DNA from: Candidatus Binatia bacterium | Lineage (GTDB): Bacteria > Desulfobacterota > Binatia > UBA9968 > JAJDTQ01 | NCBI GenBank assembly: GCA_951813575.1 | Contig: OX638375.1 | Coordinates: forward strand, 3,562,752 to 3,626,751 | Length of the DNA stretch: 64,000 bases | Reading direction: 5' to 3' | Part shown: positions 10,768 to 34,646 of the stretch, in pieces | Position numbering within the stretch: position 1 is the first letter of the stretch | Layout of the letters: every line of letters begins with the position of its first letter | Translations under genes and position numbers: made by a program | The notes under the pieces: generated by a model | Database searches by the model: none | Seen by the model: only the letters and a program-made list of their open reading frames with translations | What the model was told of the DNA's origin: nothing

Positions 10768-10769
10768 CT

Positions 10770-16010: not shown

Positions 16011-16084
16011 GGGCCTTCTCCCGTTCGAGTCTGTTTGTGCGCTTGTGCCGTCGCGCCCGCCCCAAAGGAGGGCCCGGCAAGTCT

Positions 16085-18299: not shown

Positions 18300-18612
18300 C
18301 GTATCGGCGATTCGTTAGAGACGGCTTGACGGACGGTGGTGGAGTCGGACGGATGCGGGAAGTTCACGAGGTCGTCAAGCTGACCGACGAAGGGGTGAGG
18401 GCGGGAGAGGCTCGTGTTCGGGTGACGCGTTACGAGTAGGATGCGCTGGGCAGCCGGTCGGCATTACGGACGCGCAAGGCAACCGCAGGCGGACGGTTTT
18501 CGACGGTCGCGGCCGCAAGGTACTTGACGACGATCCGAATCGAGGCCGGACGGTCTATGTCTACGACGGGAACTCGAACCTGACCGACAGGCGACAACGA
18601 CTGACGGGTTGC
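18300..18612 (+). pseudogene. RHS/YD-repeat protein remnant
   Basis: Broken reading frames here encode typical RHS repeat text. One frame gives VRVTRYE followed by a TAG exactly where the next Tyr of YEYDALG is expected. After a frame change, ITDAQGNRRRTVFDGRGRKV and TVYVYDGNSNLTDRRQRL follow. No complete gene remains. It is the decayed piece of a large RHS/YD-repeat protein, a family that often carries polymorphic toxins. It sits directly upstream of the response regulator and downstream of the secreted four-cysteine protein. Confidence 0.7.
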
Positions 18613-18628
18613 ACGAAAGGAGTCGATC

Positions 18629-19735
18629 ATGAGCGCGAGGGTCTTGATCATCGAAGACGACCCGAGGGATTTCGAGCTTCTCAGAGGAGCATTTGAGGAA
18701 ACGGAATACGAGGTGGAGTGGGCTACGACCGGCGAAGACGGTCTCACTTTTGTGCGCCACAACCCCATCGACGGTGCCGTGGTGGATTTGACCCTCAAGA
18801 ATGCCCATTACGGCGGGATGAGCTTCGTCACGAAGTGCCGCCAGGAGGGCCGCCATTTTCCGGTGGTGATCGTAACCAATATGACCATCGAGGCGGCAAG
18901 GGTACGATACGGTTCGATTTTCGATCATGCAGACGACTACGTCGAGAAGGAACTCGGTACCGACTGGTTGTGGAAGGTAAGGGACAAGCTGCGCAACAAG
19001 ATAACGCCACGTTGGATGTTTGTTTCCCCTCCTTATCGGCTGGATCGTGTTAATGAGCTCCTCTATATCGATCACGCCTCCTACGTCGACATAGAGCAGC
19101 CGGTATCCTTGGGCAGGCCCGGATCCTCGGGCGCGCCGGGGTTCCGGGTGTTGGAATGCCTGATGGGCCGGTCCGGCGCGTTCGTCTCGAAAGCCGACCT
19201 GCATCGTCTCACCCGCGAAGACGCGGATCCTGAAGAATTCGACGCCAAGGCGGAGAACAGGATTGAAAAGCTCATGTCGACGTTGCGCGACAAGATCGAC
19301 CGGAGCAAGATGATCAACCCGATCGAAACACAGGGCAACAGGTACCGGTGGCGACTTCCCGACCGGGCGGTGCCGGAGTTGCGGAAAAGGGGCGGCTCAC
19401 TCAGGGTAGGTGGTTGTCAACTGGAGATGGAAACGAAATCCCTCATCATCCTCCGCAAACGAACCCGAGTGGTGGACCTGGAGCCGGTCGAGTGCCGCAT
19501 TCTCGCATATCTCATGGGTTGCGCGGGAGTCGTGCGCTCGAGAGCCCGGATTCATGAAGGCGTATACGGAAACAACGACATGACGCCGCTACGCGAGTTG
19601 GACCGGCACATATGGTCGCTGAAACGCAAGACCGACGGGCCGGATGACGAACCGGTGAGGCACATCGAAGGCACGGGTTGCTTCTACTTCTCCGCGACGG
19701 AGGAAGCGGACGGACGGACAGTTTCGGAAAGTTGA
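18629..19735 (+). CDS. response regulator with two tandem winged-helix DNA-binding domains
   Basis: This 368-residue protein has an N-terminal receiver domain (about 1-120) with the acidic pair in LIIEDD, a phospho-acceptor Asp in GAVVDLTLKN, VTN and the conserved Lys in YVEKEL. Two OmpR/PhoB-like winged helices follow. The first (about 135-240) has APGFRVLECLMGRSGAFVSK and TQGNRYRW. The second (about 255-352) has LEPVECRILAYLMGCAGVV, a helix with RELDRHIWSLKRK and GTGCFYF. Ordinary OmpR-type regulators have only one such domain. It faces a histidine kinase 58 bases away, its probable partner. The target is unknown. Confidence 0.88.
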   Translation: MSARVLIIEDDPRDFELLRGAFEETEYEVEWATTGEDGLTFVRHNPIDGAVVDLTLKNAHYGGMSFVTKCRQEGRHFPVVIVTNMTIEAARVRYGSIFDHADDYVEKELGTDWLWKVRDKLRNKITPRWMFVSPPYRLDRVNELLYIDHASYVDIEQPVSLGRPGSSGAPGFRVLECLMGRSGAFVSKADLHRLTREDADPEEFDAKAENRIEKLMSTLRDKIDRSKMINPIETQGNRYRWRLPDRAVPELRKRGGSLRVGGCQLEMETKSLIILRKRTRVVDLEPVECRILAYLMGCAGVVRSRARIHEGVYGNNDMTPLRELDRHIWSLKRKTDGPDDEPVRHIEGTGCFYFSATEEADGRTVSES

Positions 19736-19793
19736 CTATGCGTCCAGACCGGAAAGGGGATGGATGCGGCCGCGGCGGCGAGATACAAATGCC

Positions 19794-21167
19794 CTACAAT
19801 TCCAGGCGTGCGCGGGCGGTGGCCCCTTTCCCATCGTCGCCCACGCCTATGTGGAAGCTGCCATGGTGCTCTTTCGTGATTTCGTCCAGAATCCCGAGAC
19901 CGAGTCCCGTGGGATTGGCGTTGCAAAAAGGTTCTCCGGCGTTCGAGACGACGACTTCGACCTCGTCCTGCCCGGACGTGGCGTCCACGGCCCTGTGCAG
20001 GGTCACCGTTATGGGCGGTGACCCGTGCTCGCGCGCGTTGGCCAGAAGATTCCGAAACAACTTGGTGATTTTCTCGTCGGACACGGGCTGCAGGATGGTG
20101 TCCTCCTGGCGGAATTCACACTCCTGGGAGCTCAGGGCAAATTCGTCGATGACGGACTTTGCGACAGCGGCCACGTCGGTCCTGCCCCGACGTCCATCCC
20201 AAGCCCTGACGACACGGCCTACTGCACGGGTCATCGGACTCAATCGGGCCGCGTGATCCATGGAGTCGCGCACAAGGTGTTCGGCGGCAACCATGTTCTT
20301 GTTGTTTTCGAGGCCGGGAACGGCACGAATGCTCACCATCACGTCGTGCAACTTCTCGATGATCAGGCCAGGCAGAGCCGTGCTATCCTGATCTGTGATA
20401 CGCAACATGCGCCGCAGTGTCATGCACTGAAGCCACGCTGCCGCGAACAGGATGATTCCGATGGTGCTGATTGCAGCGCTGAACCAAAAGAGCAGATGGC
20501 TGTTGGTTGCCGTAGTCTCTGTGACGATTGGCGGATCCCGCGGCACCAAAAGGGTCATGTACCACTCTACGCGGGTTTTTTCATCTTCGTGATAGAGGAT
20601 GAAACGGCGCAATGTGGCAGTCGTTCCCTCGTTTGGCAAGGGCTTCGCCTCGAAACCGGGTACGGCACCGTCTGAGGTTGTGAGCCGGAAGTAGTGCCGA
20701 GTTTTTTCCGTCCGGTGGAACTTGCTGCATAGGTCTGGCCAATCGTTGTTCTTTCTATAGCCGTCGGCGAGCCAGTATCCGAGTGTAAGTTGATCGTAAT
20801 CCGTCCGAGCCTTCAGACAAACGGCCTTGGGATAGGAGCCGACCAAGGTAGTAACTTTGTCGTTAATTGCTTCGTAGTATTTGCGTGGCTCGTTGACGGG
20901 CTCTTTGTCCACACTCAAGACGCCTCTGAAATAGTCACTGCCCAAGGATCTCCAGTAGAGATCCTCTGTTAGTTTCGCCGCCATTCGATATTCGCTCACG
21001 AGTGTATCGTGTTGAGCTTGATAGTCCCTCGCGAGGGAGTGGTACAACCACAGGTTCGTCAACACCACGGCGGGAATGGCTATCAATGCGCCAGTCGTAC
21101 CGAACAGGACGAATCTTTTTTGTCCTTGCCGTCGAAAAGCGCTAAGGCAGCGTGTGATGTATCGCAT
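19794..21167 (-). CDS. membrane sensor histidine kinase, atypical H-box
   Basis: This 457-residue protein has a transmembrane helix at about 19-42, a periplasmic sensor of about 180 residues with two cysteines (117 and 147), and a second helix at about 224-247. The cytoplasmic part has the ATPase boxes NLLANAREHG (N-box, about 373-383), VSNAGEPF and GLGLGI. The phospho-acceptor is probably His274 in EKLHDVMVSIRAVPG, which is not a standard HE/DLRTP box. It is convergent with the tandem winged-helix response regulator. A small secreted protein is encoded upstream on the same strand and may belong to the signalling unit. Confidence 0.85.
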   Translation of the reverse strand: MRYITRCLSAFRRQGQKRFVLFGTTGALIAIPAVVLTNLWLYHSLARDYQAQHDTLVSEYRMAAKLTEDLYWRSLGSDYFRGVLSVDKEPVNEPRKYYEAINDKVTTLVGSYPKAVCLKARTDYDQLTLGYWLADGYRKNNDWPDLCSKFHRTEKTRHYFRLTTSDGAVPGFEAKPLPNEGTTATLRRFILYHEDEKTRVEWYMTLLVPRDPPIVTETTATNSHLLFWFSAAISTIGIILFAAAWLQCMTLRRMLRITDQDSTALPGLIIEKLHDVMVSIRAVPGLENNKNMVAAEHLVRDSMDHAARLSPMTRAVGRVVRAWDGRRGRTDVAAVAKSVIDEFALSSQECEFRQEDTILQPVSDEKITKLFRNLLANAREHGSPPITVTLHRAVDATSGQDEVEVVVSNAGEPFCNANPTGLGLGILDEITKEHHGSFHIGVGDDGKGATARARLEL

Positions 21168-21331
21168 ATCTGGCCCCGTATGATGACGGTGGTGGTCTGG
21201 GCTTCAATCGTGGTCGTGGAGGCAGCGTGGGCATTCAGGTCCACATGTTGTGGTGGGCCAACAGGAGTTCTGGCGGGTCGGAGGTCGCGGGGGGAGCGGA
21301 TTGCCGCGAGATGGCTGAAGTCGGGTTTCTG

Positions 21332-21691
21332 TCAGCATTGGCCCAAATATTCTCCGTTGTCGCGGACGCAGTACGTCTTGTCGCCTTGCGAGGTCCCTAT
21401 GACGACGAAATAGATGTCGCGGTATCGTCTCACACGCAACACGCGTCCCTGGCGACCCGCGTTCTCCCAGGCGATGTTGGCGGCTGTCGCCGATCCGATG
21501 CGGCGGCTCTGAACGTAGTAGTTCCGCGTCCGGTGGAGTCGGCCGCCAACGGCGGCGCTGGCTCCCATGGAGACAAGCGCCGAGGCCGGGAAGCGATCGG
21601 ACGTCTGTTGTGGCCTGCCAACGACTTCAGTGGCAGCAGTCGCTGCAGCGAAGAACCCTGCGATGAGAAAGAAAAGTCCCATTGGAAACAT
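21332..21691 (-). CDS. small exported protein, function unknown
   Basis: This protein of about 119 residues has a signal peptide (MGLFFLIAGFFAAATA) and a mature part rich in Arg and Tyr that ends with two cysteines (KTYCVRDNGEYLGQC). ATG 21691 is chosen because a GGAG element lies about nine bases upstream; GTG 21700 is an alternative. It is upstream of, and co-directional with, the histidine kinase, separated by 164 bases. It may therefore be a periplasmic ligand-binding or accessory protein for that sensor. The family is not recognised. Confidence 0.55.
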   Translation of the reverse strand: MFPMGLFFLIAGFFAAATAATEVVGRPQQTSDRFPASALVSMGASAAVGGRLHRTRNYYVQSRRIGSATAANIAWENAGRQGRVLRVRRYRDIYFVVIGTSQGDKTYCVRDNGEYLGQC

Positions 21692-21993
21692 AGGCAACAC
21701 TCCACGAACCCTCTCGGGTTGAGGGACGTCATGGATGTGCGGACGGACCGCCTTAGAAGGTCAAAATTAGCACAAACGAGCGGAACCGGCGAGGGAGAGT
21801 AGACCGATCGGACCGAGAACCACCGTCACCGCGTCCCAGCGCGCTTCGGCAACTTATCGGGTCCTGTGGACCAAAGGCCACGAAGTCGTCCACCTGGACG
21901 GACGAGTCGCCTCGCTTCGTGCCCGCGTCGTAGGGTCAGTCAGTCATTGTTCAGTGCCTCTTGGTAATCTGTGTTCAGAAAGGAGACTCAGTC
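21692..21993. other. 302-base divergent intergenic region with no gene seen
   Basis: It separates the exported minus-strand protein from a plus-strand small exported protein and should contain promoters for both. A short hairpin (AACCC/GGGTT) lies at about 21707-21720. Nothing else could be supported. Confidence 0.35.
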
Positions 21994-22299
21994 ATGATCA
22001 AATATGCTCCCGTCATCAGGGTCAAAGCGATCCTCGCAGCGGCCCTCATCTCCGTTACGCTGCTGGGCGTGGTTGGCGTGAAACCAGTGCACGCAAGAAT
22101 GATCCACGGCGAGGACGTAACCAAGTCGGTTGTGACAAGTGCTTTGGTGGGCTGCGGGTTGGCCACAGTCGCCGCCACGATCTTCACCATATTCACCGTT
22201 GGTTTAGGCGCCGTGTCTTGGTCGGGCGCCGGAAAAGTGTGCGCGACGGCCGCTGCCATCGGGGGCACCGCCGGTGCTGTTGGCGAGCCGAGGCGCTAA
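21994..22299 (+). CDS. small exported Gly/Ala-rich hydrophobic peptide
   Basis: This 101-residue product starts at ATG 21994 after AGGAGA (21981-21986). It has a classic signal peptide (IRVKAILAAALISVTLLGVVGVKPVHA, given here as a region rather than a motif) ending in a VHA-like cleavage site. The mature part is short, glycine- and alanine-rich and very hydrophobic, with two cysteines (VGCGLATVAATIFTIFTVG, AGKVCATAAAIGG). It resembles hydrophobic bacteriocin-like or membrane-inserted peptides but has no recognisable leader of a RiPP class. It precedes the radical SAM operon by 163 bases in the same direction; a functional link is speculative. Confidence 0.55.
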   Translation: MIKYAPVIRVKAILAAALISVTLLGVVGVKPVHARMIHGEDVTKSVVTSALVGCGLATVAATIFTIFTVGLGAVSWSGAGKVCATAAAIGGTAGAVGEPRR

Positions 22300-22309
22300 C
22301 AACTCAGGA

Positions 22310-22359
22310 GCGAGCGGCGCTGCGTGGTCTGGGTTTCTCAGGCCCGTGGCGCCGCTCGC
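22310..22359. terminator. GC-rich inverted repeat before the radical SAM operon
   Basis: GCGAGCGGCGC (22310-22320) and GCGCCGCTCGC (22349-22359) are perfect 11-base complements with a 28-base loop. It could end transcription of the small peptide gene or attenuate the operon. No T-run follows, so the role is uncertain. Confidence 0.4.
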
Positions 22360-22462
22360 CACAACTCCGCCGCAGTTCACCACCGCCGAAGGGAGACACA
22401 ACCAGGATTGGGGCGTCGATTCCGACTGGGCCTGACGGGTCGTCCACGGAGTTGCATCAACC

Positions 22463-23803
22463 ATGAAAAATTCACTTCGCATTGCGCTGCTCAGTCCCAA
22501 AGGTCCGCTCTATCGGCATCGCGGAGGAATCTATCCGCGAAACCTTCGCTACATGCCCCTGACGCTGCCGACCCTCGCCGCGCTCGTACCCGCTGACCTG
22601 AACGCGGAGGTGCGCTGCATCGACGAGGGAATCCAGGACATTCCCGATGACCTGGACGCCGACCTCGTAGGGCTCACGGCCATTACCGGCACCGCGCCGC
22701 GTGCCTACGAGCTCGCCCGCAGGTTTCGCAGTCAAGGGAAATCCGTGGTCCTCGGAGGCCCCCACGTGACGCTCGTGCCCGACGATGCCCAGCCTCACGC
22801 CGACAGCATCGTGGTCGGATACGCCGAGGAGGAGTGGCCGCGCCTGTTGCGCGACTTCGTGCGCGGCAAGCTGAAGAAGCGCTACACGCAGGCATCCGAT
22901 CTCGTCCTTACCGGGCGTCCGCTGCCCGATCGCTCCGTGCTTCCCCGGTGGAAATACCTCACGCTGCACGTCTTCGAGGCGACGCGCGGGTGCATTCACG
23001 GGTGCGAATTCTGCGTCGTCCCCTCCGCCTGGGGCCGACCGATGCACACGCCGATCGATGCGGTCGTCGAGGATCTGCGCCGGATGCGCACCCGAAGGGC
23101 GATCTTTCTGGACCTCAACATCATTGCCGACCAGAGCTACGCGGAGGCCCTGTTCCGCGCGCTCATCCCCCTTCGAATCCAGTGGTTCGGCCTTGCAACG
23201 ACGCGAATCTGCGACCGTCCTGTCCTGCTCGATCTGGCGGCAAGGAGCGGATGCCGCGGCCTGCTGATCGGCCTCGAGTCCATCCGTTCCTCGAACCTTC
23301 GAAGCCTGCGCAAGGGATTCAACCACCCGGAGAACTACCACCAGGTGGTGTCACGGCTGCACGAACGCGGGATCGCCATCCAGGGCTGCTTCGTGTTCGG
23401 GCTGGACGACGACACCCCCGACATCTTCATGGAAACCGCCAGATTCGCGGTGGATGCCGGGATCGACCTGCCGCGGTTCGCGGTCGCGACGCCGTTCCCG
23501 GGGACGCCTCTCTACACCCGTCTCGAACGCGAGCAAAGAATCACTTCCCGCAACTGGGAGCTGTACGACGGTCAGCACGTGGTGTTCCGACCGCTGAAGA
23601 TGACCATTCAGGAGCTCGATGAAGGCACACGCCAGGCGTGGGAGTTCGCCTACAGTTGGCCGAATATCGTGCGCCGCCTGCGTCACACGGTGGCGCCGCT
23701 GCCGGTGGCGGTATCGGCCAATCTCGGCTACCGGCACTACGCGTTCAACCTGGACCGGTTCTACACGTGCGACTGGATACTTCAAGGCGGAGGTGCGCCG
23801 TGA
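22463..23803 (+). CDS. B12-binding radical SAM enzyme (first of two)
   Basis: This 446-residue protein has an N-terminal cobalamin-binding-like Rossmann domain (about 1-150, with VLGGPHVTLVPDD) and a radical SAM core with the cluster motif CIHGCEFC near residue 178. It continues with GLLIGLES, FVFGLDDD and the TPFPGTPLY block seen in HpnP/HpnJ-type and related B12 radical SAM proteins. Enzymes of this kind perform methylations or other carbon skeleton chemistry on unactivated positions. It is the first gene of a five-gene operon with stop/start overlaps. The substrate is unknown. Confidence 0.9.
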   Translation: MKNSLRIALLSPKGPLYRHRGGIYPRNLRYMPLTLPTLAALVPADLNAEVRCIDEGIQDIPDDLDADLVGLTAITGTAPRAYELARRFRSQGKSVVLGGPHVTLVPDDAQPHADSIVVGYAEEEWPRLLRDFVRGKLKKRYTQASDLVLTGRPLPDRSVLPRWKYLTLHVFEATRGCIHGCEFCVVPSAWGRPMHTPIDAVVEDLRRMRTRRAIFLDLNIIADQSYAEALFRALIPLRIQWFGLATTRICDRPVLLDLAARSGCRGLLIGLESIRSSNLRSLRKGFNHPENYHQVVSRLHERGIAIQGCFVFGLDDDTPDIFMETARFAVDAGIDLPRFAVATPFPGTPLYTRLEREQRITSRNWELYDGQHVVFRPLKMTIQELDEGTRQAWEFAYSWPNIVRRLRHTVAPLPVAVSANLGYRHYAFNLDRFYTCDWILQGGGAP

Positions 23804-25161
23804 GTTTTCGCCTGACCATCATCCATCCCTGCGTGGGACGACGGGCCGGAATGAAGCGCTACATTCGGACGTGGAAGATGGAGCCTATCCCGGCCGCGAT
23901 GGTGGCTGCCCTGGCACCCCAGGACATCGAGCGTCGCTTCTACGACGACCGTCTCGAGCCCATCCCGTTCGACGAGCCCGCCGATCTCGTGGCGATCAGC
24001 GTCGAGACCTACACTGCGCGCCGCAGCTACCAGATTGCAAGCGAATACCGAAAGCGGGGCGTTCCCGTGGTGATGGGAGGTTTTCACGCAACGCTCTGCC
24101 CCGACGAGGTCCAACGCTATTGCGAGTCGATCGTCATCGGGGAAGCGGAGGAAACGCTGCCCGAGCTCGTCGACGACTATCGTTCGGGCCGGCCCCGGAA
24201 GGTCTATCGGTCGAGCGCGCGCCCGAAGCTCAACCGGGTGGATCCGGATCGCAGCATCTATCGAGGCCGCCGCTATCTCCCGATTCGCCTCGTGGAGTTC
24301 GGGCGCGGCTGCAAGTTCGTATGCGATTTCTGTGCAATCCAGTCGGCCTTCGGAGCGACCCAGACCCACCGCCCCGTCGATCGCGTCGTCGCCGAAGTCG
24401 CCCGGGTCCGACGGCCCGGACAGATGGTCTTCTTTATCGACGACAACATGACGTCGAACATGGAGGCCGCCAAGGAACTCATGCGTGCGCTGATTCCGTT
24501 GCGCATCCGCTGGGTCAGCCAGGCAAGCATCAACGTGGCGTACGACGAGGAGGCGCTTGCACTGATGCGACGAAGCGGCTGCCAGGGTGTCCTCGTGGGA
24601 TTCGAGAGCCTCGACCGCGACACCCTGAAGACCATGCACAAGGGGTTCAACATGATGCGCGGAGGGCCACGCGAGGCAATCGCCAACTTCCAGCGTCACG
24701 GCCTGCGGCTCTATGGGACGTTCGTATTCGGCTACGACCGGGATACCGCCGAGACCTTCGCCGACACGCTCGAATTCGCAAAGGAACAGGGGCTGTTCAT
24801 CGCGGCGTTCAACCACATTACCCCCTTCCCCGGCACGCCGCTCCACGCGCGACTCCGCGAGGAGGGAAGGCTCATCTACGACCCCTGGTGGCTCGACGAA
24901 CGCTACCGCTACAACATGATCCCCTTCGTGCCGAAGCGGATGTCGCCGGAGGAACTGGGAGCCCACTGCCTCGAGGCACGCCGCAGCTTTTATTCCTGGA
25001 AGAGCATCTTTCGGCGATTCAGGCAGCCGGTCAATCACCGCGACGTCTGGATGGCCACCTACTTCCTCGCGATCAACGCGATGCACCAGATCGACGTGGC
25101 GGGCCGCAACGGCCTGCCGCTCGGAGACGAATCGTGGCAAGGAAACCTGATTCCTGCGTGA
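23800..25161 (+). CDS. B12-binding radical SAM enzyme (second of two)
   Basis: This 453-residue protein starts with GTG 23800, overlapping the stop of the preceding gene (GTGA). Its longer open frame upstream is only a shadow. It has an N-terminal B12-binding-like domain (VVMGGFHATLCPDE, VIGEAEETLPELV) and a radical SAM core with CKFVCDFC. It then has FFIDDNMTSN, GVLVGFESLDRDTLK, FVFGYDRD and TPFPGTPLH. It is a paralogue of the previous gene with the same architecture but clearly diverged, so the two probably act at successive steps or on two positions. The chemistry is not deducible from sequence. Confidence 0.9.
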   Translation: MSFRLTIIHPCVGRRAGMKRYIRTWKMEPIPAAMVAALAPQDIERRFYDDRLEPIPFDEPADLVAISVETYTARRSYQIASEYRKRGVPVVMGGFHATLCPDEVQRYCESIVIGEAEETLPELVDDYRSGRPRKVYRSSARPKLNRVDPDRSIYRGRRYLPIRLVEFGRGCKFVCDFCAIQSAFGATQTHRPVDRVVAEVARVRRPGQMVFFIDDNMTSNMEAAKELMRALIPLRIRWVSQASINVAYDEEALALMRRSGCQGVLVGFESLDRDTLKTMHKGFNMMRGGPREAIANFQRHGLRLYGTFVFGYDRDTAETFADTLEFAKEQGLFIAAFNHITPFPGTPLHARLREEGRLIYDPWWLDERYRYNMIPFVPKRMSPEELGAHCLEARRSFYSWKSIFRRFRQPVNHRDVWMATYFLAINAMHQIDVAGRNGLPLGDESWQGNLIPA

Positions 25162-26270
25162 CGCCAAGTCGCCCGACACAGTTCCGCGCCGAGTTCGCGG
25201 GCGCACGCGACGACGCCGAACTGCGTGCGCTCCTTCGTGCCGGTGTGATGCGCGGGCAGATCGACGTCACACTCGAACGCGAGCCTTCCTTCCACCGTGC
25301 CCTCGCCATCGAGGGGGATCGGCACCACACGGTCGTCGTTCGCTATACCGCGACGGCCGGCATCGTCTACATGGGCACGCGTTCGGTCCGGCAGGTGTGG
25401 TTCAACGGTCGGCCGCATCGCGTCGGGTATCTTGGTGCGTTGCGAACCCTGCCGGGCGCTCGCGGGATCAGGCGTCTCGCCAGCGCGTACCGGGTGCTGG
25501 AGACCACGCGGCGGCCCGATGAGCTTCCGTTCGACCTGACGAGCGTCGCCGCCGACAACGTCACCGCCCGGCGACTTTTCGAGCGCGGCCTGCCGATGCT
25601 CCCTCGCTACCGGGCCTTGTGCGACTACCACACTCTGCTGATTCCGACCAGACCGCGTCCCGCGCCTTACGACCCAAGGGTGGAAGCGGGTCACCCGGAA
25701 CTCTACGGGGACATCGCCGAGTGTCTCGCTCGGAACCTGCGTCGCTATCAGTTGGCACCGGTGTGGACGGAGAAAGATCTCCGCTGCCCGGAGCGTACCC
25801 GGGACCTGAGCCCCCGGGACTTCCTGGTCATCCGCGAGCGCGGACGGGTCGTGGCCTGCGGCGCTTCCTGGGATCAGCGCCGCTTCAAGCAGGCGGTCGT
25901 TCACGGCTATGCCCCGATGCTCGGCCGCGTTCGCCCGCTGCTCAACCTGTATTTCGGCCTTCGCGGGCAACCGAAGCTTCCGGCGATCGGTTCGCGGGTC
26001 CCCATCGCATACATCTCGCACTTCGCGTTCGAGCCGGATCGGCCCGATCTGGGCACCGCGCTCGTTCGTGCATTGCGCGGGCGGGTGGCCGGACGCGGCA
26101 CGGGGCTCCTGGCCATCGGTTTCGCGGCCAGCCATCCGCTCCTGGACACGTTGCGGCGGGAATTTCCGGTACGTGCCTACACGAGCCGAATCTTTCGTGT
26201 TCAGTGGCACGGCTCGCCCGAGGTCGCGCTTGATTCCCGCACCCCACACCTGGAGGTCGCGACACTATGA
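25158..26270 (+). CDS. tandem GNAT-like acyltransferase
   Basis: This protein of about 370 residues begins at GTG 25158, overlapping the previous stop (GTGA); GTG 25134 is an alternative. The N-terminal half has a GNAT-like strand-turn-strand pattern (VVVRYTATAGIVYMG, RVGYLGALRTLPGARG). The C-terminal half has a second such unit (LVIRERGRVVACGASWD, YISHFAFEPDRPDLGTALVRAL, LLAIGFAASHPLL). No other domain is seen. It lies between the radical SAM genes and another GNAT-like gene in one operon, so it likely transfers an acyl or aminoacyl group to the pathway product. The assignment to GNAT rests on pattern alone. Confidence 0.65.
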   Translation: MTPSRPTQFRAEFAGARDDAELRALLRAGVMRGQIDVTLEREPSFHRALAIEGDRHHTVVVRYTATAGIVYMGTRSVRQVWFNGRPHRVGYLGALRTLPGARGIRRLASAYRVLETTRRPDELPFDLTSVAADNVTARRLFERGLPMLPRYRALCDYHTLLIPTRPRPAPYDPRVEAGHPELYGDIAECLARNLRRYQLAPVWTEKDLRCPERTRDLSPRDFLVIRERGRVVACGASWDQRRFKQAVVHGYAPMLGRVRPLLNLYFGLRGQPKLPAIGSRVPIAYISHFAFEPDRPDLGTALVRALRGRVAGRGTGLLAIGFAASHPLLDTLRREFPVRAYTSRIFRVQWHGSPEVALDSRTPHLEVATL

Positions 26271-26974
26271 TGATTTCCGCCCGCAGCATTCCCCGTGCAT
26301 CGCTTCGCGAGGCTGAGCGCAAGGCAATGTATGCCGTCTTTCAACAGAACTTCGACGGCATCAGGCGCGAGTGGTTCGACCAGGACCTTGACGAGAAGAA
26401 CCACGTGATCCTGCTCGAGCGAACCGACGGACAGGTCATCGGCTTTTCCACGGTCCTGCTCTACGACACGGAGTATCGGGGCGAGCGATTCAACGTCGTC
26501 TACTCCGGCGACACGATCGTGGACCGCGATGCCTGGGGCACTTCCGCCCTCCCGCGTGCGTGGATCAAGACCGTCCTCGAGCTAAAACAGGACGACGCGC
26601 GTCTGATGTGGCTTTTGATCGTGTCCGGATTCCGGACGTATCGCTTCCTGCCCGTGTTCTTCAAGCATTTCTTTCCATCGCACGACAGTTCCGTGACGCC
26701 CGAGACGCTTGCCCTGCTGGACAAGCTGGCGCATGAGCGTTTCGGCAGCCTCTATGACACGAAGCGGAAAATCGTGAGATTCCCGCACCCGCAGCGGCTT
26801 CGCTCCGACCTTGCGGCGATTCCTCCGGGTCGGCGCAGGCACTCCCACGTCGCCCACTTTGAACGTCTCAATCCGGGACATGCTCAAGGGGACGAGCTGG
26901 TCTGCGTGACCGAAATCGACGTGAGGAACCTGACCCACGCAGGCAAACGGATGCTGGGGGAATACCGGCCATGA
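26267..26974 (+). CDS. GNAT-like protein of the radical SAM/GH3 operon
   Basis: This 235-residue protein starts at ATG 26267, overlapping the previous stop (ATGA). The core HVILLERTDGQVIGFSTVLL, FNVVYSGDTIVDRDAWGTSALPRAWI and LLIVSGFRTYRF follows the order of strands in GNAT acyltransferases. The C-terminal tail is a short strand-rich segment. It overlaps the GH3 gene by four bases, so it is translationally coupled on both sides. It probably works with the tandem GNAT protein and GH3 ligase on the same substrate. No donor is deducible. Confidence 0.62.
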   Translation: MMISARSIPRASLREAERKAMYAVFQQNFDGIRREWFDQDLDEKNHVILLERTDGQVIGFSTVLLYDTEYRGERFNVVYSGDTIVDRDAWGTSALPRAWIKTVLELKQDDARLMWLLIVSGFRTYRFLPVFFKHFFPSHDSSVTPETLALLDKLAHERFGSLYDTKRKIVRFPHPQRLRSDLAAIPPGRRRHSHVAHFERLNPGHAQGDELVCVTEIDVRNLTHAGKRMLGEYRP

Positions 26975-28722
26975 CCGCCGCCGGCGCGCTCCAGGCGACG
27001 ACAATTGGCAGTTCCCGCCACCACGCGCGTTCGCTGCGCGAGGCGCTGAGGGATCCGGCCGCCGCTCAGTACCGGGTACTTCGACGATATCTGAGGACGA
27101 ACGCGGATACCGCGTTCGGGAAGCGGTACGACTTCTCTTCGATCAGGACCCCGGCGGAATTCCAGCGGGCCGTTCCGCTTCGCGACTACGACGAACTGGT
27201 ACCGTGGATCGATCGAATCCGCGCCGGCGAGGCCCGCGTCCTGACATCCGACCGAGTGACGCGATTCGTGCCCAGCAGTGGCTCGACCGCGGCGTCGAAG
27301 CTGATTCCGTGGACGAAGGCGCTGCAGTCGGAATTCGTTCGGGCATCCGGGGGATGGATGGTCGACCTGTTCGAAAGGTACCCTCGTCTTTGCGGCGGAC
27401 TCGCCTACTGGTCGATTAGTCCGACAGTGCCGTTCCGGCCGAGCACCCCGTCGAAGGTGCCGATAGGATTCGTTGACGACACGGCGTATCTCGGAGACCG
27501 TTTGGGAACGGCCATGCGCAGCACGCTCGCGGTTCCGCCGAAGATTGCGGCCATCCGCGACCTGGGCGCGTTTCGATACATGACCGCGCTCGCACTGCTG
27601 CGAGCCAGGAAGCTTGCGCTCGTCTCGGTCTGGCACCCGTCCTTCCTGAGCCTGCTCCTCGCCGCCATGGCCGACCGTTGGGACGAGTTGCTTCGCGACG
27701 TTCGCTCCGGTCGTCCGAGCGTCGAGATCGACGAGCCGTTTCGCCACGCATTCGACGCTCGCTCCGACCCGCGGCGTGCCGACGAGCTGGCATCGGCCGG
27801 TCCGGGGGCCTGGACGGAGATCTGGCCTCGTCTCGCGCTCGTCAGTTGCTGGGCGGATGCGCATGCGGCCGGTGCGTTCCGCGAACTGCGCGCCATGCTG
27901 CCGGGCGTCGAGTTCCAGGCAAAGGGCCTGCTCGCGACCGAGGCCTTCGTCACCCTGCCCTTTGCAGGGGGACGACCGGTCGCGGCGCTGTCCCATTTCT
28001 TCGAGTTTCTGGATGGGCAGGGCCGCGCGCGCCTGTTGCACGAGCTCGTGGGGGACGAGGAATACTCCGTGGCGGTCACCACGGGCGGAGGCCTCTATCG
28101 CTACCGGCTCCGTGACCGCGTACGCGTCTGCAGATTCGTCGAACGCACGCCTTCCCTGTACTTCATCGGCAAGGAGGATAAACTCTCTGATCGCTTCGGC
28201 GAAAAGCTCGACGACGGATTCGTCGCGCACGTACTGGATGAGTGCCTGAACGGAGCGCCCGGTCACGACTTCGCAATGCTGGCCCCGGACGAACGAGACA
28301 GCGGGGTCGGCTATACGCTCTATGTCCAGGGCGAACACGCGGACGTCGCGAGCCTGGCATCGGCGATTGACGATGCGTTGTCGGCCAATTCTCACTACCG
28401 CTACTGCCGCCACCTCGGACAGCTCCGATCCGTTCGGGTCTTCGTCATCGACAACGGAGCGCACGCGGCATACCTGGCGCACCGCAATGCCTCGGGTCAG
28501 CAGCTTGGAAACATCAAGCCGGCGGCCCTGAGCGCCGAGTCGGGTTGGTCCCGCCGGTTCGAGGGACGCTACGCGATAGGCAACAGCGCCAACAATTGGC
28601 CACAAAACATGCCGCCCGATCCAGGAGAGCTTACGCAGGCTGAAGCGGCGGAGGAACTGGGTGTGCCGGAAGGAACCATTGCGAGCCGCGTGAATCGGTG
28701 CGATTGGCGAATAAGGCGCTGA
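26971..28722 (+). CDS. GH3 family acid-amido synthetase-like ligase with an aberrant C-terminal tail
   Basis: This 583-residue adenylate-forming enzyme is of the GH3 (auxin-responsive) family, which activates a carboxylate with ATP and joins it to an amine. The nucleotide motif PSSGSTAASKLIPWT (near residue 100) and TTGGGLYRYRLRD (near residue 370) are clear. The usual C-terminus QLGNIKPAALS followed by RRFEGRYA is present. After it the frame continues about 40 residues into ELTQAEAAEELGVPEGTIASRVNR, which reads like sigma factor region 4. That tail is probably a recombination scar. It overlaps the preceding gene by four bases and closes the operon. Confidence 0.82.
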   Translation: MTAAGALQATTIGSSRHHARSLREALRDPAAAQYRVLRRYLRTNADTAFGKRYDFSSIRTPAEFQRAVPLRDYDELVPWIDRIRAGEARVLTSDRVTRFVPSSGSTAASKLIPWTKALQSEFVRASGGWMVDLFERYPRLCGGLAYWSISPTVPFRPSTPSKVPIGFVDDTAYLGDRLGTAMRSTLAVPPKIAAIRDLGAFRYMTALALLRARKLALVSVWHPSFLSLLLAAMADRWDELLRDVRSGRPSVEIDEPFRHAFDARSDPRRADELASAGPGAWTEIWPRLALVSCWADAHAAGAFRELRAMLPGVEFQAKGLLATEAFVTLPFAGGRPVAALSHFFEFLDGQGRARLLHELVGDEEYSVAVTTGGGLYRYRLRDRVRVCRFVERTPSLYFIGKEDKLSDRFGEKLDDGFVAHVLDECLNGAPGHDFAMLAPDERDSGVGYTLYVQGEHADVASLASAIDDALSANSHYRYCRHLGQLRSVRVFVIDNGAHAAYLAHRNASGQQLGNIKPAALSAESGWSRRFEGRYAIGNSANNWPQNMPPDPGELTQAEAAEELGVPEGTIASRVNRCDWRIRR

Positions 28723-28984
28723 CGCTGGACGACGATGCACGTTATCGAGACACGCTAGTGGCTGCATTGGTGGGAGCGGGCGAACGACTCGGAGCGTTTC
28801 CAGAGTATGAGACGGCCATACACATGGATCGACAGATCTACACAAAGGAGGTTAGCATTGAAGTGGTCCCGGTTTGTAGGAGAGGAAGGCGGCCGAGTCA
28901 AGGTGTATTCGGGACGATGGGTCGTGCCGGCTTCGGGGACAAGCCGCCGCTCGCATCGGGTTCATCGGTCTTGAGGCCAGACAT

Positions 28985-29437
28985 GATTGAGTGGCGATCT
29001 GTCTGAATGTGGAAACCGACAGGGCACCGCGCTCGGTCTCGCCTTGCTGCCGGGTTCGGCGAGGGCCTTGACGACCGCATAGCGGTCCGCCTTCCAGTTC
29101 TCCTGTGTCTCCAGTTCCTGGTTCACCAGAACCAACAGAACGGCATCCCACTCCTGATCCGGCTTGATGGAACCGAGGAGTTGGCCTTTGGTGGGTTCGG
29201 GATCGGGAACGGCGCGGGACTTGATCTGGTAGAGGCGGCCGGCGTTGTCCGTGGCGTCGTGGCCGGGGACGCGGGCGGGGTTGAGGGTCAGTCCGAGCAG
29301 GCGGGCGGCTTCGCATTCGCCGACCTCTCCGGTGATTCCAAGCGGCTTGCCGGCCAGCCGGTAGTAGTCGACCGCGGCCTGTTTCGCCCGAGCGAGAATG
29401 TCGCGGATGTCGTTCGCCGGGGCATGTGGCCAGTCAT
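28985..29437 (-). pseudogene. frameshifted PD-(D/E)xK-like protein gene (DUF6998-type)
   Basis: The central part reads NDIRDILARAKQAAVDYYRL, ITGEVGECEAARLLGL, VPGHDATD and LYQIKSRA, consistent with a nuclease-like fold of the kind labelled DUF6998. The likely start ATG 29437 (MTGH) is out of frame with the body. The expected ending (ERGALSVSTFRQIA) is in a third frame. Two indels therefore break the gene. The family name is from memory of the pattern and should be treated as tentative. Confidence 0.55.
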
Positions 29438-29704
29438 TGTAATTGGCCCTGGAGTTTCCGGGCGGCCTCAGCCAGTTTTCTCCATCTCTTCGCCGCGTCC
29501 TTCGCGGATCGGTTCGTCGCGTTTGTGCGTTGCCAACATCCACGTAGAGCGGCACGTCCGCTCGATCAGCGGTGTGAGCGAGGCTGGGATCGCGTCGGCG
29601 CCGGTATCGGCGCGGCCTCGGGCGATGTCCAGAATTTTCCTGCGGACAAACTCGGCGGCCGGGACATCATACAGTTCGGCGGCGGCCTTGACCGCCGAAT
29701 CCAC
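29434..29704 (-). pseudogene. short broken gene upstream of the DUF6998-like gene, family unknown
   Basis: An open frame from ATG 29704 gives MDSAVKAAAELYDVPAAEF and ends early at 29468. A neighbouring frame continues as KLAEAARKLQGQLQ and stops in an ATGA overlap with the next gene at 29434-29437. That tidy overlap suggests the original gene ended there and a single indel moved the frame. The protein is not recognised. Confidence 0.4.
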
Positions 29705-29874
29705 GAACGGCTATGGCACGCTCGCTAACGCCGTCTCCTTGTCCCATTCGTACATCGCCGCTGCCCCCGACCAAGGCGGTCAGCTCATCGAGGACGATTC
29801 GCCTTTCAACGGCCAATCCGCTACCCTCGGAAACCATTCCCACAGTGGCCGCCAGACACGGAAGGACCAACGAG

Positions 29875-30216
29875 ATGGCGACAACCGCAGACCGCAGGAA
29901 GACGGCGCTCAAGGAGGCCATGACCAAGACACAGCTTCTGAACGCCCTGTCCGAATCGACCGGGCTCCAAAGGAAGGACGTGGCCTCGGTGCACGACCAG
30001 CTCGGAGTGGTCATTGAGCGCCACATTAAGAGACGCGCGGTAGGAACGTTCACGCTTCCCGGCCTGCTTAAGATCAAGGTGGTACGCAAGCCCGCGACAA
30101 AGGCGCGCAAGATGATCTCACCCTTCACCGGGCAAGAGATCACTGGTGGCCGCGAAACCCGCCTCGCGGGCGGTGAAGGTTCAGCCCCTGAGAGGGCTCA
30201 AGCGCATGACCGAGTA
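29875..30216 (+). pseudogene. HU-family DNA-binding protein gene with a frameshift
   Basis: From ATG 29875 the frame encodes an HU-like protein (MTKTQLLNALSESTGLQRKD, GTFTLPGLLKIKVV, KPATKARKMISPFTGQE). After PFTGQEIT, at about 30144-30150, the expected ending VAAKPASRAVKVQPLRGLKRM is found one frame over, stopping at TAG 30214-30216. One extra base in CTGGTGG explains it. The longer ORF past this point is an artefact. It is either a true pseudogene or a sequencing indel. Confidence 0.75.
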
Positions 30217-30482
30217 GGGTCGGCGCACCGGCGCCATAGGGCGCCAAGAGATGCCCGGTTTACGCAGAGGCGGTGGCACGCCGCCCGAGGCGCCGTGTTG
30301 ACCATGTGTTGATTGTTACGGCGCGAATCATCCGGTCTTCCAAGCGGAGAGTATTACCTTTTTGTTTTCGATTAGTTACGGGCGGCGAGCCGTAGGAAAA
30401 ACCCTACACGGCCAAGTTTGAAACCCGCCAAGTGTTGAACACGTTGTGACCTCCCTGGGGTAAGACCCGTGGAGGCTCTCGA

Positions 30483-30743
30483 ACGTATTCGATTACCTTC
30501 AAGAAACAGCCGATCAAGGCCCTGCGCGCCATGCCGCTACGTGAGGCGCAAGGAATCCGCGATCAACTGTCCAGGCTGGCCGAGGACCCCGCGCGCCGGG
30601 ATGTCGATGTGACTGCCCTTACGAACCGCTCGGGATTTCGGCTGCGTGTGGGCGGACGGCGAGTGATTTTCGAGCGTGATGACACAACGCGCTGCATCGA
30701 CGTTCTGCGTGTCGGGCGGCGTGGCGATGTCTATGGAGATTGA
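30483..30743 (+). CDS. RelE/ParE-like toxin, lacking an ATG start
   Basis: The reading frame gives a typical RelE-fold toxin: YSITFKKQPIKALRAMP, IRDQLSRLAEDP, RSGFRLRVGGRRVIFER and VLRVGRRGDVYG. The natural N-terminus (YSITFKK) follows an ACG at 30483, seven bases after a strong GGAGG (30471-30475), where an ATG would be expected. The first ATG (30531) would remove the first beta strand. So the start codon is probably mutated or non-canonical. A ribosome site and ATG followed at once by TAA (about 30766-30777) come next, as if the antitoxin gene had been cut away. Confidence 0.65.
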   Translation, partial: TYSITFKKQPIKALRAMPLREAQGIRDQLSRLAEDPARRDVDVTALTNRSGFRLRVGGRRVIFERDDTTRCIDVLRVGRRGDVYGD

Positions 30744-30786
30744 AGAATCGACACGGGAGGAAGGATCAAGCCATGTAACTCGCGGC

Positions 30787-31158
30787 TCAGATCAGATCGT
30801 CCACTTCGACGTCCAGGGCTCCAGCGATCGAGGCAAGTGTTCTCGCCGAACCGGTTCGTTTACCGGTCTCAATTTGCGACAGGTACACGGGATTGATGCC
30901 TGCGGCGGCGGCTAGCTGCTTCTGGGTCAGGCGGCGATGGTCTCGATACACCCGGATGGGACTTTCTCCCGCCAGAAGACGGTCCACCACGGTAGCGGGG
31001 AACGACTCACCTGCGGCAGACTTCGCAAGATCGTAGAGTTCTTCGTCCGTCAGTGCGCCTTCAACGTCACCGGAAACCAGTCGTTTGTACTCGCGCCACG
31101 GGACGACCGCGTATGCCGGCTCCCCCTTGTTGTCAAGAATGACCTGGGGTTTGTTCAT
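30787..31158 (-). CDS. antitoxin-like protein: Phd-type N-terminus plus XRE helix-turn-helix
   Basis: This 123-residue protein starts MNKPQVILDNKGEPAYAVVPW, a Phd/YefM-like first strand and helix. It ends in a lambda-repressor-type HTH (LTQKQLAAAAGINPVYLSQIETGKR). Such proteins are the antitoxins and autoregulators of RelE-type systems. ATG 31158 follows GGAGAACCC, so it is preferred to the upstream in-frame start. It is convergent with the RelE-like gene, unlike the usual tandem order. An inverted repeat 50-80 bases upstream could be its operator. Confidence 0.8.
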   Translation of the reverse strand: MNKPQVILDNKGEPAYAVVPWREYKRLVSGDVEGALTDEELYDLAKSAAGESFPATVVDRLLAGESPIRVYRDHRRLTQKQLAAAAGINPVYLSQIETGKRTGSARTLASIAGALDVEVDDLI

Positions 31159-31204
31159 GGGTTCTCCTCGGACGCGTGGAGTAGGCAATCATCAGGATAG
31201 CGAA

Positions 31205-31235
31205 TGCTATATATTGTTTAGCAGATGATATAGCA
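31205..31235. promoter_or_regulatory. inverted repeat, candidate antitoxin operator
   Basis: TGCTATAT (31205-31212) and ATATAGCA (31228-31235) are perfect 8-base complements spaced by 15 bases in an AT-rich patch just upstream of the XRE antitoxin gene. The position and symmetry fit autoregulation by the HTH protein. Confidence 0.5.
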
Positions 31236-31381
31236 GAACGCTTTTGTCATGTCGAGCGGCGTCAAGCTCCGATTTTCGACCTGAATGCACGCGGTTCCGT
31301 CATCAACATCCGAAACGCTTGCGGTATACGGAAGAGTTGCAATAAACCGTAACAGAGAAATCACAGAGAGGAGGATTTGAA

Positions 31382-31675
31382 ATGTCCATCGTCAGACTGA
31401 TCCACGTCAACGTCGACCCCGGCCAGGCCGCGGAGGCGGAACGCATCTGGAAAGAGGATTGCGGCCCGCGCATGCTCGCTCAGCAGGGCTGCAAGTCCGA
31501 GCAGTTGCTGAAGTGCACCGATTCCCCGGGCGAATATATTTCCTACGCCGAGTGGGAGAGCCAGGAAGACATCGATCGCTATCGCGAGAGTGAAGACCAC
31601 CAGACCATCCAGACGCATGCGCGCGCGCTCCAGGGCGCCCGTGCCGTGGTCAAGCGGTACGAGGCCATCGACTGA
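31382..31675 (+). CDS. ABM-domain (antibiotic biosynthesis monooxygenase-like) protein
   Basis: This 97-residue ferredoxin-fold protein of the ABM superfamily has VRLIHVNVDPGQAAEAERIW, SEQLLKCTDSPGEYISYAEW and VKRYEAID. A strong ribosome site (GAGGAGG) precedes ATG 31382. It leads a run of same-strand genes (FAD/Fe-S oxidase, threonine synthase-like, LLM oxidoreductase). ABM proteins act as small monooxygenases, haem-degrading enzymes or simple binding proteins, and the activity cannot be told here. An operon link is likely but the 76-base gap leaves room for doubt. Confidence 0.75.
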   Translation: MSIVRLIHVNVDPGQAAEAERIWKEDCGPRMLAQQGCKSEQLLKCTDSPGEYISYAEWESQEDIDRYRESEDHQTIQTHARALQGARAVVKRYEAID

Positions 31676-31751
31676 GTGGTTCAGCCGGAGGCAGAGTCCG
31701 TCGGCCATCGCGACCTGAGTCGTAATATCGTGGCCGCTAGGAGAATTTCCA

Positions 31752-34646
31752 ATGGCGCGTGAAGGCCAGCAGGATTACCGGGAGACCGAGGCCGAGCTCC
31801 GAAAGCGCGTGGAGGGCGAGGTCCGGTTCGACCACTATTCGCGGCTGCTCTACGCCACGGATGCGTCCATCTACCAGATGGAGCCCGTGGGCGTGGTCAT
31901 CCCCCGCCACAAGGGCGACGTCCAGGCGGTGATCGAGGTGGCCAACCGGCACAGGGTGCCGGTGCTGGCCCGTGGCGGCGGCACCTCGCTGGCGGGACAG
32001 ACCGTGGGCCACGCCATCGTCATGGACTTCTCCAAGTACATGAACCAGGTGCTGGAAACGAACCGGGAGGAGCTCTGGTGCCGCGTCCAGCCCGGTCTCG
32101 TCCAGGACGCCCTGAACGCCCACGCGGCGCCCATGGGAATGCTTTTCGGCCCGGATACCTCCACCTCGAACCGGGCCACCATCGGCGGCATGATCGGCAA
32201 CAACTCGGCGGGCGCCCACTCCATCGTGTACGGCAAGACCCTGGACCACGTGCTGGAGCTGACGGTGCTGCTGGCGGACGGCAGCGAGGTGGTGCTCCGG
32301 GATCTCACAGCCGACACGCTGGCCGGCCTGCAGGCGGGCAGGGGGCTGGAGAGCCGCATCTACCGGGAGTTGCCGCCGTTGGTGGAGTCCGCCGGCGGGC
32401 TCATCGCCGAGCGCTATCCCAAGCTCATGCGGCGAGTGTCGGGCTACAACCTGGACGAGTTCACCAAGGACCAGCCGTTCAACCTCTCGCGCCTGATCGT
32501 GGGCTCCGAGGGCACCCTCGCCTGCGTGGTGGAAGCGAAGATGCGCCTGGTGCCCAAGCCCAAACACACGGCCCTGGACGTCATCCATTTCCATGACCTC
32601 CAGGAGGCGCTGGGGGTGTCCGAGACCATCCTCGCCACCAACCCCTACGCCATGGAGCTCACCGACAAGCCCATCCTGGACCTGGCGCGCAACAACATCG
32701 AGCAGTCCAAGCGGCTGGGCTTTGTTCAGGGCGACCCCGACGCCATCCTCATGGTGGAGTACGACGGCGACACCGCCGAGGAGGTCCGGGACAAGGTCGA
32801 CAAGCTGGAGGTGATACGGAAGCGGGAGCACATGGGCTATGCCGCCTCCCTGGCCTACGAACCGGGGGAGGTGCAGCGGATCTGGGGCGTTCGCAAGGCC
32901 GGCTTGGGGCTCTTGCTGGGCGTCAAGGGAGAGAAGAAGCCCATCGCTTTCGTCGAGGACACCGCGGTGGACCCGGTGAAGCTGCCGGAGTTCATCAAGC
33001 GGTTCCGCGGCATCCTGAGCGGCCACGGCGTCCGCGCCGGCTACTACGGCCACTGCTCCGTGGGCTGCATGCACATCCGCCCGTTCATCAACCTCAAGGA
33101 AGCGGGCGAGGTGGAGTTGATGACGCAGATCTCCCGCGAGATCTCCGACCTGGTGATGGAGTTCGGCGGCGCCATGTCCGGCGAGCACGGCGACGGCCTG
33201 GCCCGGAGCCACTTGAACGAGAAACTTTTCGGACCGGAGCTCTACCAGGAGTTCCGCAAGGTCAAGCGCCTGTTCGACCCGCAGAACCTGCTCAACCCCG
33301 GCAAGATCGTGGACGCGCCGCCCATGACCGATTCGCTCCGCTACGGCACCTCCTACAAGACTTGGCAGCCCGACACCATGCTGGACTTCAGCGACCAGGG
33401 GGGGTTTGTGGCGGCGGTGGAGATGTGCAACGGCACCGGCGCCTGCCGCAAGACCCTGGGCGGCACCATGTGCCCCTCCTACATGGCCACCCTGGAGGAG
33501 CAGCACTCCACCCGCGGGCGGGCCACCGCCTTCCGCGCGGTGCTGTCCGGCAAGGTGCCCCGCTCCGAGTTCACCGGCGAGGGGCTCCACGAGGTGCTGG
33601 ACCTCTGCCTCGAGTGCAAGGGCTGCAAGGCCGAATGTCCCTCCAACGTGGACATGGCCAAGCTCAAGTACGAGTTCCTGCACCACTACCAGCAGGTCCA
33701 CGGGGTCTCGCTCCGGAGCCGCCTGTTCGGGCGCATCGGTTCCCTGAGCCGCTGGGGCTCGCTGCTGGCGCCGGTCGCCAACCGGGTCAACGGCAGCTTC
33801 GTCAACCGCTGGTTCCTGGACCGCTTCCTGGGCATCGACCGCAGGCGCCCGCTGCCGAGCTTCGCGCGCAACAACTTCGAGGCATGGTGGAACAAGCGCG
33901 ATGCCGGGGGCAGCGGCGCACGGGGCTCGGTGATCCTGTTCCACGACACCTTCAACACCTACAACACGCCCGACGTGGCGGTGGCGGCCACGCGCCTTCT
34001 GGAGCATTTGGGCTATCGCGTGATGACCGTGCCCCGGCGCTGCTGCGGCCGGCCCATGATCTCCAAGGGCATGCTGCAGGACGCCAAGGACCACGCCGCC
34101 TGGAACGTGGCCCGCCTGCTGCCCCACGTGGAGCAGGGGGTGCGGGTGGTGGGACTGGAGCCGTCCTGCATCCTGACGCTGCGGGACGAGTACCCCGACC
34201 TCCTGCGCAACGAGCCGGCGCGCCTGGTGGCGGGCCAGACGCTGCTCATCGAGGAGTTGCTGATGCGCGACGAGGTGGGGGACTCGCTCAAGAACGGCGG
34301 CGGTGCCAAGCCGCCGGTGCTGCTGCACGGCCACTGCCACCAGAAGGCCTTGGTGGGCATGGCGCCCACGGTCTCGGTACTGCGGGAAGCGGGCCACGAG
34401 GTCCGCGAGGTGGACTCCGGCTGTTGCGGCATGGCCGGCTCCTTCGGCTTCGAGAAGGAGCACTACGACGTGTCGGTGGCCATCGCCAACCGCCGGCTGG
34501 TGCCGGCGGTGGAGGCCACGCCCGAGGACGCACGGGTGGTGGCCTCGGGCATTTCCTGCCGGCAGCAGATCGAACATCTTACGGGACGCAAGGCGCTTCA
34601 TCCCGTGGAGGTGCTGTGGGAAGGCGTCCGGGAAGCCGGAGCCTGA
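31752..34646 (+). CDS. FAD-linked oxidase fused to Fe-S and CCG domains (D-lactate/2-hydroxyacid dehydrogenase-like)
   Basis: This 964-residue enzyme fuses a vanillyl-alcohol-oxidase-type FAD domain to an electron-transfer half. The FAD domain has RGGGTSLAGQTVG and GGMIGNNSAGAHSIVYGKT. A linker with CNGTGACRKTLGGTMCP and CLECKGCKAECP then provides two [4Fe-4S] sites. The end carries CCG motifs (RRCCGRPM, SGCCGMAGSFG). This matches the YdiJ-like class that oxidises D-lactate or related 2-hydroxyacids and feeds electrons to quinones at the membrane. It is nine bases upstream of a threonine synthase-like gene. The substrate is unproven. Confidence 0.9.
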   Translation: MAREGQQDYRETEAELRKRVEGEVRFDHYSRLLYATDASIYQMEPVGVVIPRHKGDVQAVIEVANRHRVPVLARGGGTSLAGQTVGHAIVMDFSKYMNQVLETNREELWCRVQPGLVQDALNAHAAPMGMLFGPDTSTSNRATIGGMIGNNSAGAHSIVYGKTLDHVLELTVLLADGSEVVLRDLTADTLAGLQAGRGLESRIYRELPPLVESAGGLIAERYPKLMRRVSGYNLDEFTKDQPFNLSRLIVGSEGTLACVVEAKMRLVPKPKHTALDVIHFHDLQEALGVSETILATNPYAMELTDKPILDLARNNIEQSKRLGFVQGDPDAILMVEYDGDTAEEVRDKVDKLEVIRKREHMGYAASLAYEPGEVQRIWGVRKAGLGLLLGVKGEKKPIAFVEDTAVDPVKLPEFIKRFRGILSGHGVRAGYYGHCSVGCMHIRPFINLKEAGEVELMTQISREISDLVMEFGGAMSGEHGDGLARSHLNEKLFGPELYQEFRKVKRLFDPQNLLNPGKIVDAPPMTDSLRYGTSYKTWQPDTMLDFSDQGGFVAAVEMCNGTGACRKTLGGTMCPSYMATLEEQHSTRGRATAFRAVLSGKVPRSEFTGEGLHEVLDLCLECKGCKAECPSNVDMAKLKYEFLHHYQQVHGVSLRSRLFGRIGSLSRWGSLLAPVANRVNGSFVNRWFLDRFLGIDRRRPLPSFARNNFEAWWNKRDAGGSGARGSVILFHDTFNTYNTPDVAVAATRLLEHLGYRVMTVPRRCCGRPMISKGMLQDAKDHAAWNVARLLPHVEQGVRVVGLEPSCILTLRDEYPDLLRNEPARLVAGQTLLIEELLMRDEVGDSLKNGGGAKPPVLLHGHCHQKALVGMAPTVSVLREAGHEVREVDSGCCGMAGSFGFEKEHYDVSVAIANRRLVPAVEATPEDARVVASGISCRQQIEHLTGRKALHPVEVLWEGVREAGA

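Follow-up and report, generated by a model that had tools for sequence, protein, structure and literature searches.

What would a bacterium make with two cobalamin-dependent radical SAM enzymes, two acyltransferase-like proteins and an acid-amido ligase encoded end to end on one strand? The question is raised by a run of five genes (22463–28722, + strand) in the window, the 64,000-nucleotide stretch of a Candidatus Binatia genome analyzed here. The operon is best read as an undescribed, widespread biosynthetic module for a carrier-free amide or lipo-amide pathway. Put more specifically, we lean towards a horizontally spread module, free of PKS, NRPS and carrier proteins, whose product would be a small molecule or lipid with an amide linkage. 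The first gene, rSAM1 (22463–23803), encodes a 446-amino acid protein with B12-binding and radical SAM domains and the CxxxCxxC motif CIHGCEFC. It is followed by a paralog with the same domains, rSAM2 (23800–25161; 453 amino acids, GTG start, motif CKFVCDFC), and by GNATa (25158–26270; 370 amino acids, GTG start), GNATb (26267–26974; 235 amino acids) and GH3 (26971–28722), which codes for an acyl acid amido synthetase-like ligase. None of the five frames is interrupted, and the coordinates and junction sequences agree with the original prediction of five + strand genes that overlap by four bases at every junction (GTGA at 23800 and 25158, ATGA at 26267 and 26971). The overlaps suggest that the genes are co-translated. 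A small ORF upstream of the operon (21961–22299) codes for a 112-amino acid protein that has a hydrophobic start, includes stretches rich in glycine and alanine and matches no Pfam family.

The set is conserved. A GNATa search of 58 relatives and a plasmid search gave the first conserved loci: one from a different family of the order (G013, L011), where the five genes form the same run, and one on a Citrobacter portucalensis plasmid that carries all five. A scan of 84,980 species (one genome per species) with rSAM1 added 64 loci, of which about 50 are close relatives, with identities of 43–69% for rSAM1. When the scan loci, the first ones and the window were searched with profiles, the five families turned up together in 35 places, one of them the window (34 when L044, a duplicate of L043, is set aside), always on one strand. 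They span nine named phyla (Planctomycetota, Pseudomonadota, Thermodesulfobacteriota, Acidobacteriota, Campylobacterota, Chloroflexota, Gemmatimonadota, Deinococcota and Bacillota), although many loci are metagenome bins and individual phylum labels may be wrong. Genome searches with GNATb contributed seven further five-gene loci, for a total of about 40 besides the window. Most loci were recruited via rSAM1 alone, so the co-presence of the other four genes was not built into the search. Thus, the genome-neighborhood comparison proposed with the original prediction came out in its favor. Named strains with the cluster include Citrobacter youngae ATCC 29220, Leminorella grimontii ATCC 33999, Limnobaculum allomyrinae, Halomonas campaniensis and Planctomycetota ZRK32. 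The contigs with L043 and L044 are labeled Citrobacter sp. 18056 and Chryseobacterium sp. 18061, respectively, yet the cluster has an identical layout in both; this suggests cross-contamination, with L044 the probable contaminant. We found no published description of the five-gene set in the open PMC literature.

Two gene orders prevail, the window's rSAM1-rSAM2-GNATa-GNATb-GH3 and GNATb-GH3-rSAM1-rSAM2-GNATa, which are circular permutations of one another; a few loci depart from this by insertions or a split rSAM gene. When GNATb was missing beside rSAM1, it was present elsewhere in the genome or on another contig in 7 of 10 genomes, and several of the loci concerned are truncated at a contig end. 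Pairwise distance matrices from the 22 loci with five complete genes correlated strongly (r 0.77–0.94, a level reached in 0 of 2000 permutations). Hence, the five genes travel and diverge together, a correlation that joint inheritance explains as well as direct interaction does. Mean identity between loci was 58–60% for rSAM1 and rSAM2 and 31–38% for the trio of GNATa, GNATb and GH3. The gap may reflect a conserved scaffold chemistry with more variable amide partners, although family rates also differ. Viral contigs searched with one pattern had no GNATb relative, and a phage cargo is not supported. The sole PADLOC hits were weak ones of the rSAM domains to PDC-M51A (32 and 20 bits), which leaves anti-phage defense without support. 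The Citrobacter cluster DNA had no match in E. coli.

Genes that recur next to the cluster code for a fatty-acid desaturase and an accompanying SnoaL-like protein, for PAP2, for a Rieske oxygenase together with an alpha/beta-hydrolase-like protein (so called from a reading of its sequence; Pfam gave no match) and for a membrane protein. Of the 17 loci of at least 12 kb with the desaturase or the SnoaL-like protein, 15 had both. The desaturase forms a fusion with PAP2 in L057 and with a squalene/phytoene-synthase domain in L011. Members of the SnoaL-like family (e.g., L046, 16995–17585; L057, 13807–14469), nearly always found with the desaturase, have a signal peptide, the SnoaL-like domain and a C-terminus with a glycine-rich hydrophobic segment and a basic end that resembles a sorting or anchor signal. 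A tree of 129 radical SAM proteins resolved rSAM1, rSAM2 and two more subfamilies, rSAM3 and rSAM4, which form an additional pair in about 20 loci. The Rieske oxygenase and rSAM3/4 tended not to co-occur in loci of at least 12 kb (0/20 versus 6/18; Fisher p 0.007, an optimistic value because related loci are not independent). Over all loci the p value was 0.06, with one exception (L039) in which the contig ends within rSAM3. This suggests that the Rieske enzyme and rSAM3/4 are alternatives for one step, and we do not claim strict exclusion.

Some clusters contain the GNATa/GNATb/GH3 trio and no rSAM gene. In Enterobacterales these trio-only clusters occur with HlyD and RND genes, in Acinetobacter baumannii the same run includes EmrA-, EmrB- and TolC-like genes, and others are found with a Rieske oxygenase, a desaturase and an FG-GAP protein. 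The trio-only clusters thus point to the amide-forming trio as what the clusters share, with the rSAM pair as a major elaboration. Since trio relatives adjoin exporters, at least some of the products are probably exported. The original prediction had noted the absence of a transporter; this holds for the window operon but not for the trio relatives. Export of an rSAM-type product would be an extrapolation, because the relatives with adjacent exporters all lack rSAMs. The A. baumannii run (L137 and L139; NZ_CP064203.1 and NZ_CP104448.1, 4 Mb records filed as plasmids that are evidently chromosomes) reads LuxR-like regulator, indoleacetamide-hydrolase-like amidase, EmrA-like, EmrB-like, GNATb, GH3, TolC-like and GNATa, and insertion-sequence-like ORFs interrupt the upstream genes in L139. 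A GNATa homolog also occurs without GH3 and GNATb (L010 in G023, 6537–15467), next to AMP-binding, DUF3419 (BtaA-like), SPASM radical SAM, MMPL, KAS III and AurF genes, possibly another lipid or amide cluster.

The amide-forming reading starts from GH3. Its N-terminal, middle and C-terminal domains (Pfam GH3, GH3_M and GH3_C) scored 174.9, 48.5 and 33.6 bits against a Pfam cut-off of 23.6 (E 3e-51 for the first), which places the protein among the GH3 acyl acid amido synthetases. Furthermore, the family profile matched solved structures of the plant enzymes (JAR1, GH3.12 and GH3.15) along the greater part of their length (E 1e-36 to 1e-39). The plant proteins conjugate hormones, whereas the operon GH3 belongs to a bacterial clade and shares an operon with acyltransferases. 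A closer precedent is OlsH, a bacterial GH3 that makes N-acyl-ornithine (lyso-ornithine lipid) with ATP and whose authors expect further bacterial GH3s to form other N-acyl amino acids (PMC12493201). Both proteins have the GH3 fold, and the ATP-dependent amide formation shown for OlsH is expected for the operon enzyme.

This precedent could suggest a membrane aminolipid pathway like that of ornithine lipids, in which GH3 would form an N-acyl amino acid, the GNATs would acylate it further and the rSAMs and desaturase would modify the acyl chain inside the membrane. The recurrence of desaturase and PAP2 genes in the clusters agrees with such a route, yet we consider it unlikely. The window GH3 scored 43.3 bits against the OlsH equivalog cut-off of 620 (NF052613), and by this curated threshold the clade is not OlsH. 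OlsH partners with OlsG and OlsI, whereas the operon GH3 partners with rSAMs and GNATs, and no OlsI-like partner was identified. The patchy occurrence of the cluster within genus, class and order is also unlike that of a core membrane lipid, and the exporter genes beside the trio relatives argue in the same direction.

The two acyltransferase-like proteins differ from one another more than their original description as GNAT-like implied. GNATb (AlphaFold2 pLDDT 94) had only a sub-threshold GNAT match in Pfam and only generic GNATs as structural matches; its predicted structure is a single GNAT domain with a family-specific C-terminal part. GNATa matched no Pfam family. However, its AlphaFold2 model (pLDDT 94) has two adjacent GNAT domains in the arrangement of N-myristoyltransferases (NMT), which Foldseek matched over the full length (TM 0.57–0.64). 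One plasmid-derived row was left out of the alignments behind the predictions. The resemblance lies in the predicted fold: GNATa is bacterial, is only ~9–14% identical to the eukaryotic NMTs and has a best sequence-level match to them with an E value of 0.09. Thus, the earlier wording can be refined to an NMT-like tandem GNAT (GNATa) and a single-domain GNAT (GNATb), as predicted from structure models.

The C-terminus of GNATa, which ends in EVATL-COOH, may add to the likeness. It falls at the same position in 58 of 64 homologs, most trio-only relatives among them, and 55 of the 64 have a terminal leucine. In contrast, the C-termini of the rSAM, GNATb and GH3 proteins scatter by 7–12 residues (s.d.), though their genes likewise abut or overlap their neighbors. 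The catalytic base of NMT is its C-terminal carboxylate (PMC7048800), a feature described as unique to NMT within the GNAT superfamily (PMC4964394). A C-terminus fixed to the residue is what would be expected if the terminal carboxylate were the base. By analogy, we infer that GNATa may use its own in the same way, although the fixed end could also have a structural cause.

The predicted NMT fold is also compatible with a polypeptide acceptor, in which case GNATa would lipidate a protein or peptide as NMT does and the cluster would be a modification system. B12-dependent radical SAM enzymes also act on RiPPs, which fits such a role. So does the activity of tandem GNATs (NpuN and the selidamide lipidases) that lipidate lysine or ornithine side chains of RiPPs (PMC13060382). 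Like GNATa, these lipidases are tandem GNATs within biosynthetic clusters, with amine acylation, predicted for GNATa, as the common reaction type; the lipidases act on lanthipeptides, however, and no precursor peptide was found beside GNATa. Neighborhood clustering of ORFs of at least 70 amino acids recovered no recurrent family of small precursors, and GH3 enzymes use small acids and amines as substrates. Both points argue against a polypeptide acceptor, which we regard as improbable.

The rSAM pair would provide the chemistry at the scaffold. Both proteins have the domains (PF02310 and PF04055, above cut-off, E 1e-10 to 1e-13) and the CxxxCxxC motif of cobalamin-dependent radical SAM enzymes. 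They share the order of a B12-binding domain followed by a radical SAM domain with BchE, HpnJ, PhpK and TIGR04072 proteins, but rSAM1–4 are separate subfamilies with constant GH3 and GNAT partners. A side pathway to hopanoids, ladderanes or tetrapyrroles is highly improbable, for although HpnJ, TIGR04072 and BchE were among the best NCBIfam matches, rSAM1 and rSAM2 scored 56–99 bits against equivalog cut-offs of 360–578 (HpnJ, TIGR03471: 74.7 and 96.7 versus 577.6; BchE, TIGR02026: 58.5 and 98.8 versus 481.35; ladderane-type TIGR04072: 55.9 and 81 versus 360), which rules out membership, and their constant partners are GH3 and GNATs rather than hopanoid, fatty-acid-synthase or chlorophyll genes. 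The original prediction had named a hopanoid family placement next to hopanoid genes as grounds for giving it up; the rSAMs fall far below every named family cut-off, which leaves a hopanoid role unsupported, and neighborhood clustering showed no hopanoid genes among the recurrent neighbors. The best, though weak, scores were to the BchE, HpnJ and PhpK models, and ring formation or oxidation is thus as likely as methylation. The earlier proposal is partly supported: its main idea, one undescribed pathway that alters an unactivated carbon and then conjugates the product, stands, while methylation becomes one option among three. Another B12-binding radical SAM protein (DUF4070; G000:C1:942573-943829, L076 9574–11598) is 32% identical to rSAM1 and has FtsE/FtsX-like and M23 peptidase genes as neighbors.

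From the gene content, order, conservation and co-variation, the predicted folds and the fixed GNATa C-terminus, we infer the following route to an amide-linked product, each reaction, the order of steps, the export and the product itself being predictions. The constant rSAM1–rSAM2 pair would act on an unactivated C-H of the scaffold by methylation, ring formation or oxidation. GH3 would activate a carboxylic acid with ATP to an acyl-AMP and join it to an amine. GNATa would take an acyl group, probably long-chain, from acyl-CoA and pass it to an amine, the general base being the carboxylate at the C-terminus of GNATa, and GNATb would add another acyl group. The core encodes no source of the acyl group or amine. 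In other hosts, exchangeable tailoring could be provided by the rSAM3–rSAM4 pair or a Rieske oxygenase (often with the alpha/beta hydrolase), and also by a desaturase with the SnoaL-like protein or by PAP2, and some products would be exported. A bolder version is tentative and in our view less likely than not: a pan-bacterial, mobile, carrier-free class in which GH3, a carboxylate-using NMT-type GNAT and a second GNAT would assemble an exported lipo-amide around a scaffold made by the constant B12-rSAM pair; one tailoring step would then exist in two forms, one that needs oxygen (Rieske) and one that does not (rSAM3/4).

In this genome, the operon lies in a patch of lower GC (16000–32000; GC 0.57–0.65 versus 0.65–0.73 on either side, to about 54 kb) that is consistent with acquired DNA. 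A response regulator gene (18629–19735, +) and a histidine-kinase-like gene (19794–21167, −) lie at the patch's upstream edge. The GC3 of the operon is 0.77–0.81, compared to 0.89–0.94 in several neighboring genes. Furthermore, GNATb was present in 3 of the 148 searched genomes of the class and in none of eight congeners. The homologous part of GH3 (26971–28570) ends ~50 residues before the ORF does, and the remaining tail (28570–28722), absent from orthologs, has a scrap resembling region 4 of ECF sigma factors (sigma-70 region 4; Pfam). The patchy distribution, low GC and foreign tail suggest that the operon was acquired horizontally, with a probable recombination joint at its 3′ end. The window GH3 also reads YRYRLRD (RLRD in place of xxGD) where a glycine precedes the aspartate in most relatives. 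Given the tail and the changed motif, this GH3 copy may be impaired or decaying. A genome search found no desaturase ortholog, an empty result that is weak evidence, and no Rieske ortholog was identified in the genome, where matches of 24–35% covered the Rieske part only. The open frames and the loci that have the core without recognized accessory genes (L015, L030 and L045) indicate that the bare core may suffice for function.

All of the operon enzymes fall in known superfamilies and the module is therefore not categorically new; the NMT-like GNATa is the most telling new detail. It suggests that NMT-type carboxy-terminal catalysis may operate in bacterial small-molecule metabolism. The apparent alternation of Rieske and rSAM3/4 genes offers a test of whether oxygen-dependent and oxygen-independent enzymes replace each other at one step. 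The presence of the cluster in named strains and on a Citrobacter plasmid puts a search for the product within reach. If the amide-forming reading is true, the cluster would encode a route to a natural product or lipid that lacks the customary marker enzymes (no PKS, NRPS, carrier or RiPP precursor was found), and genome mining based on such markers could miss it.
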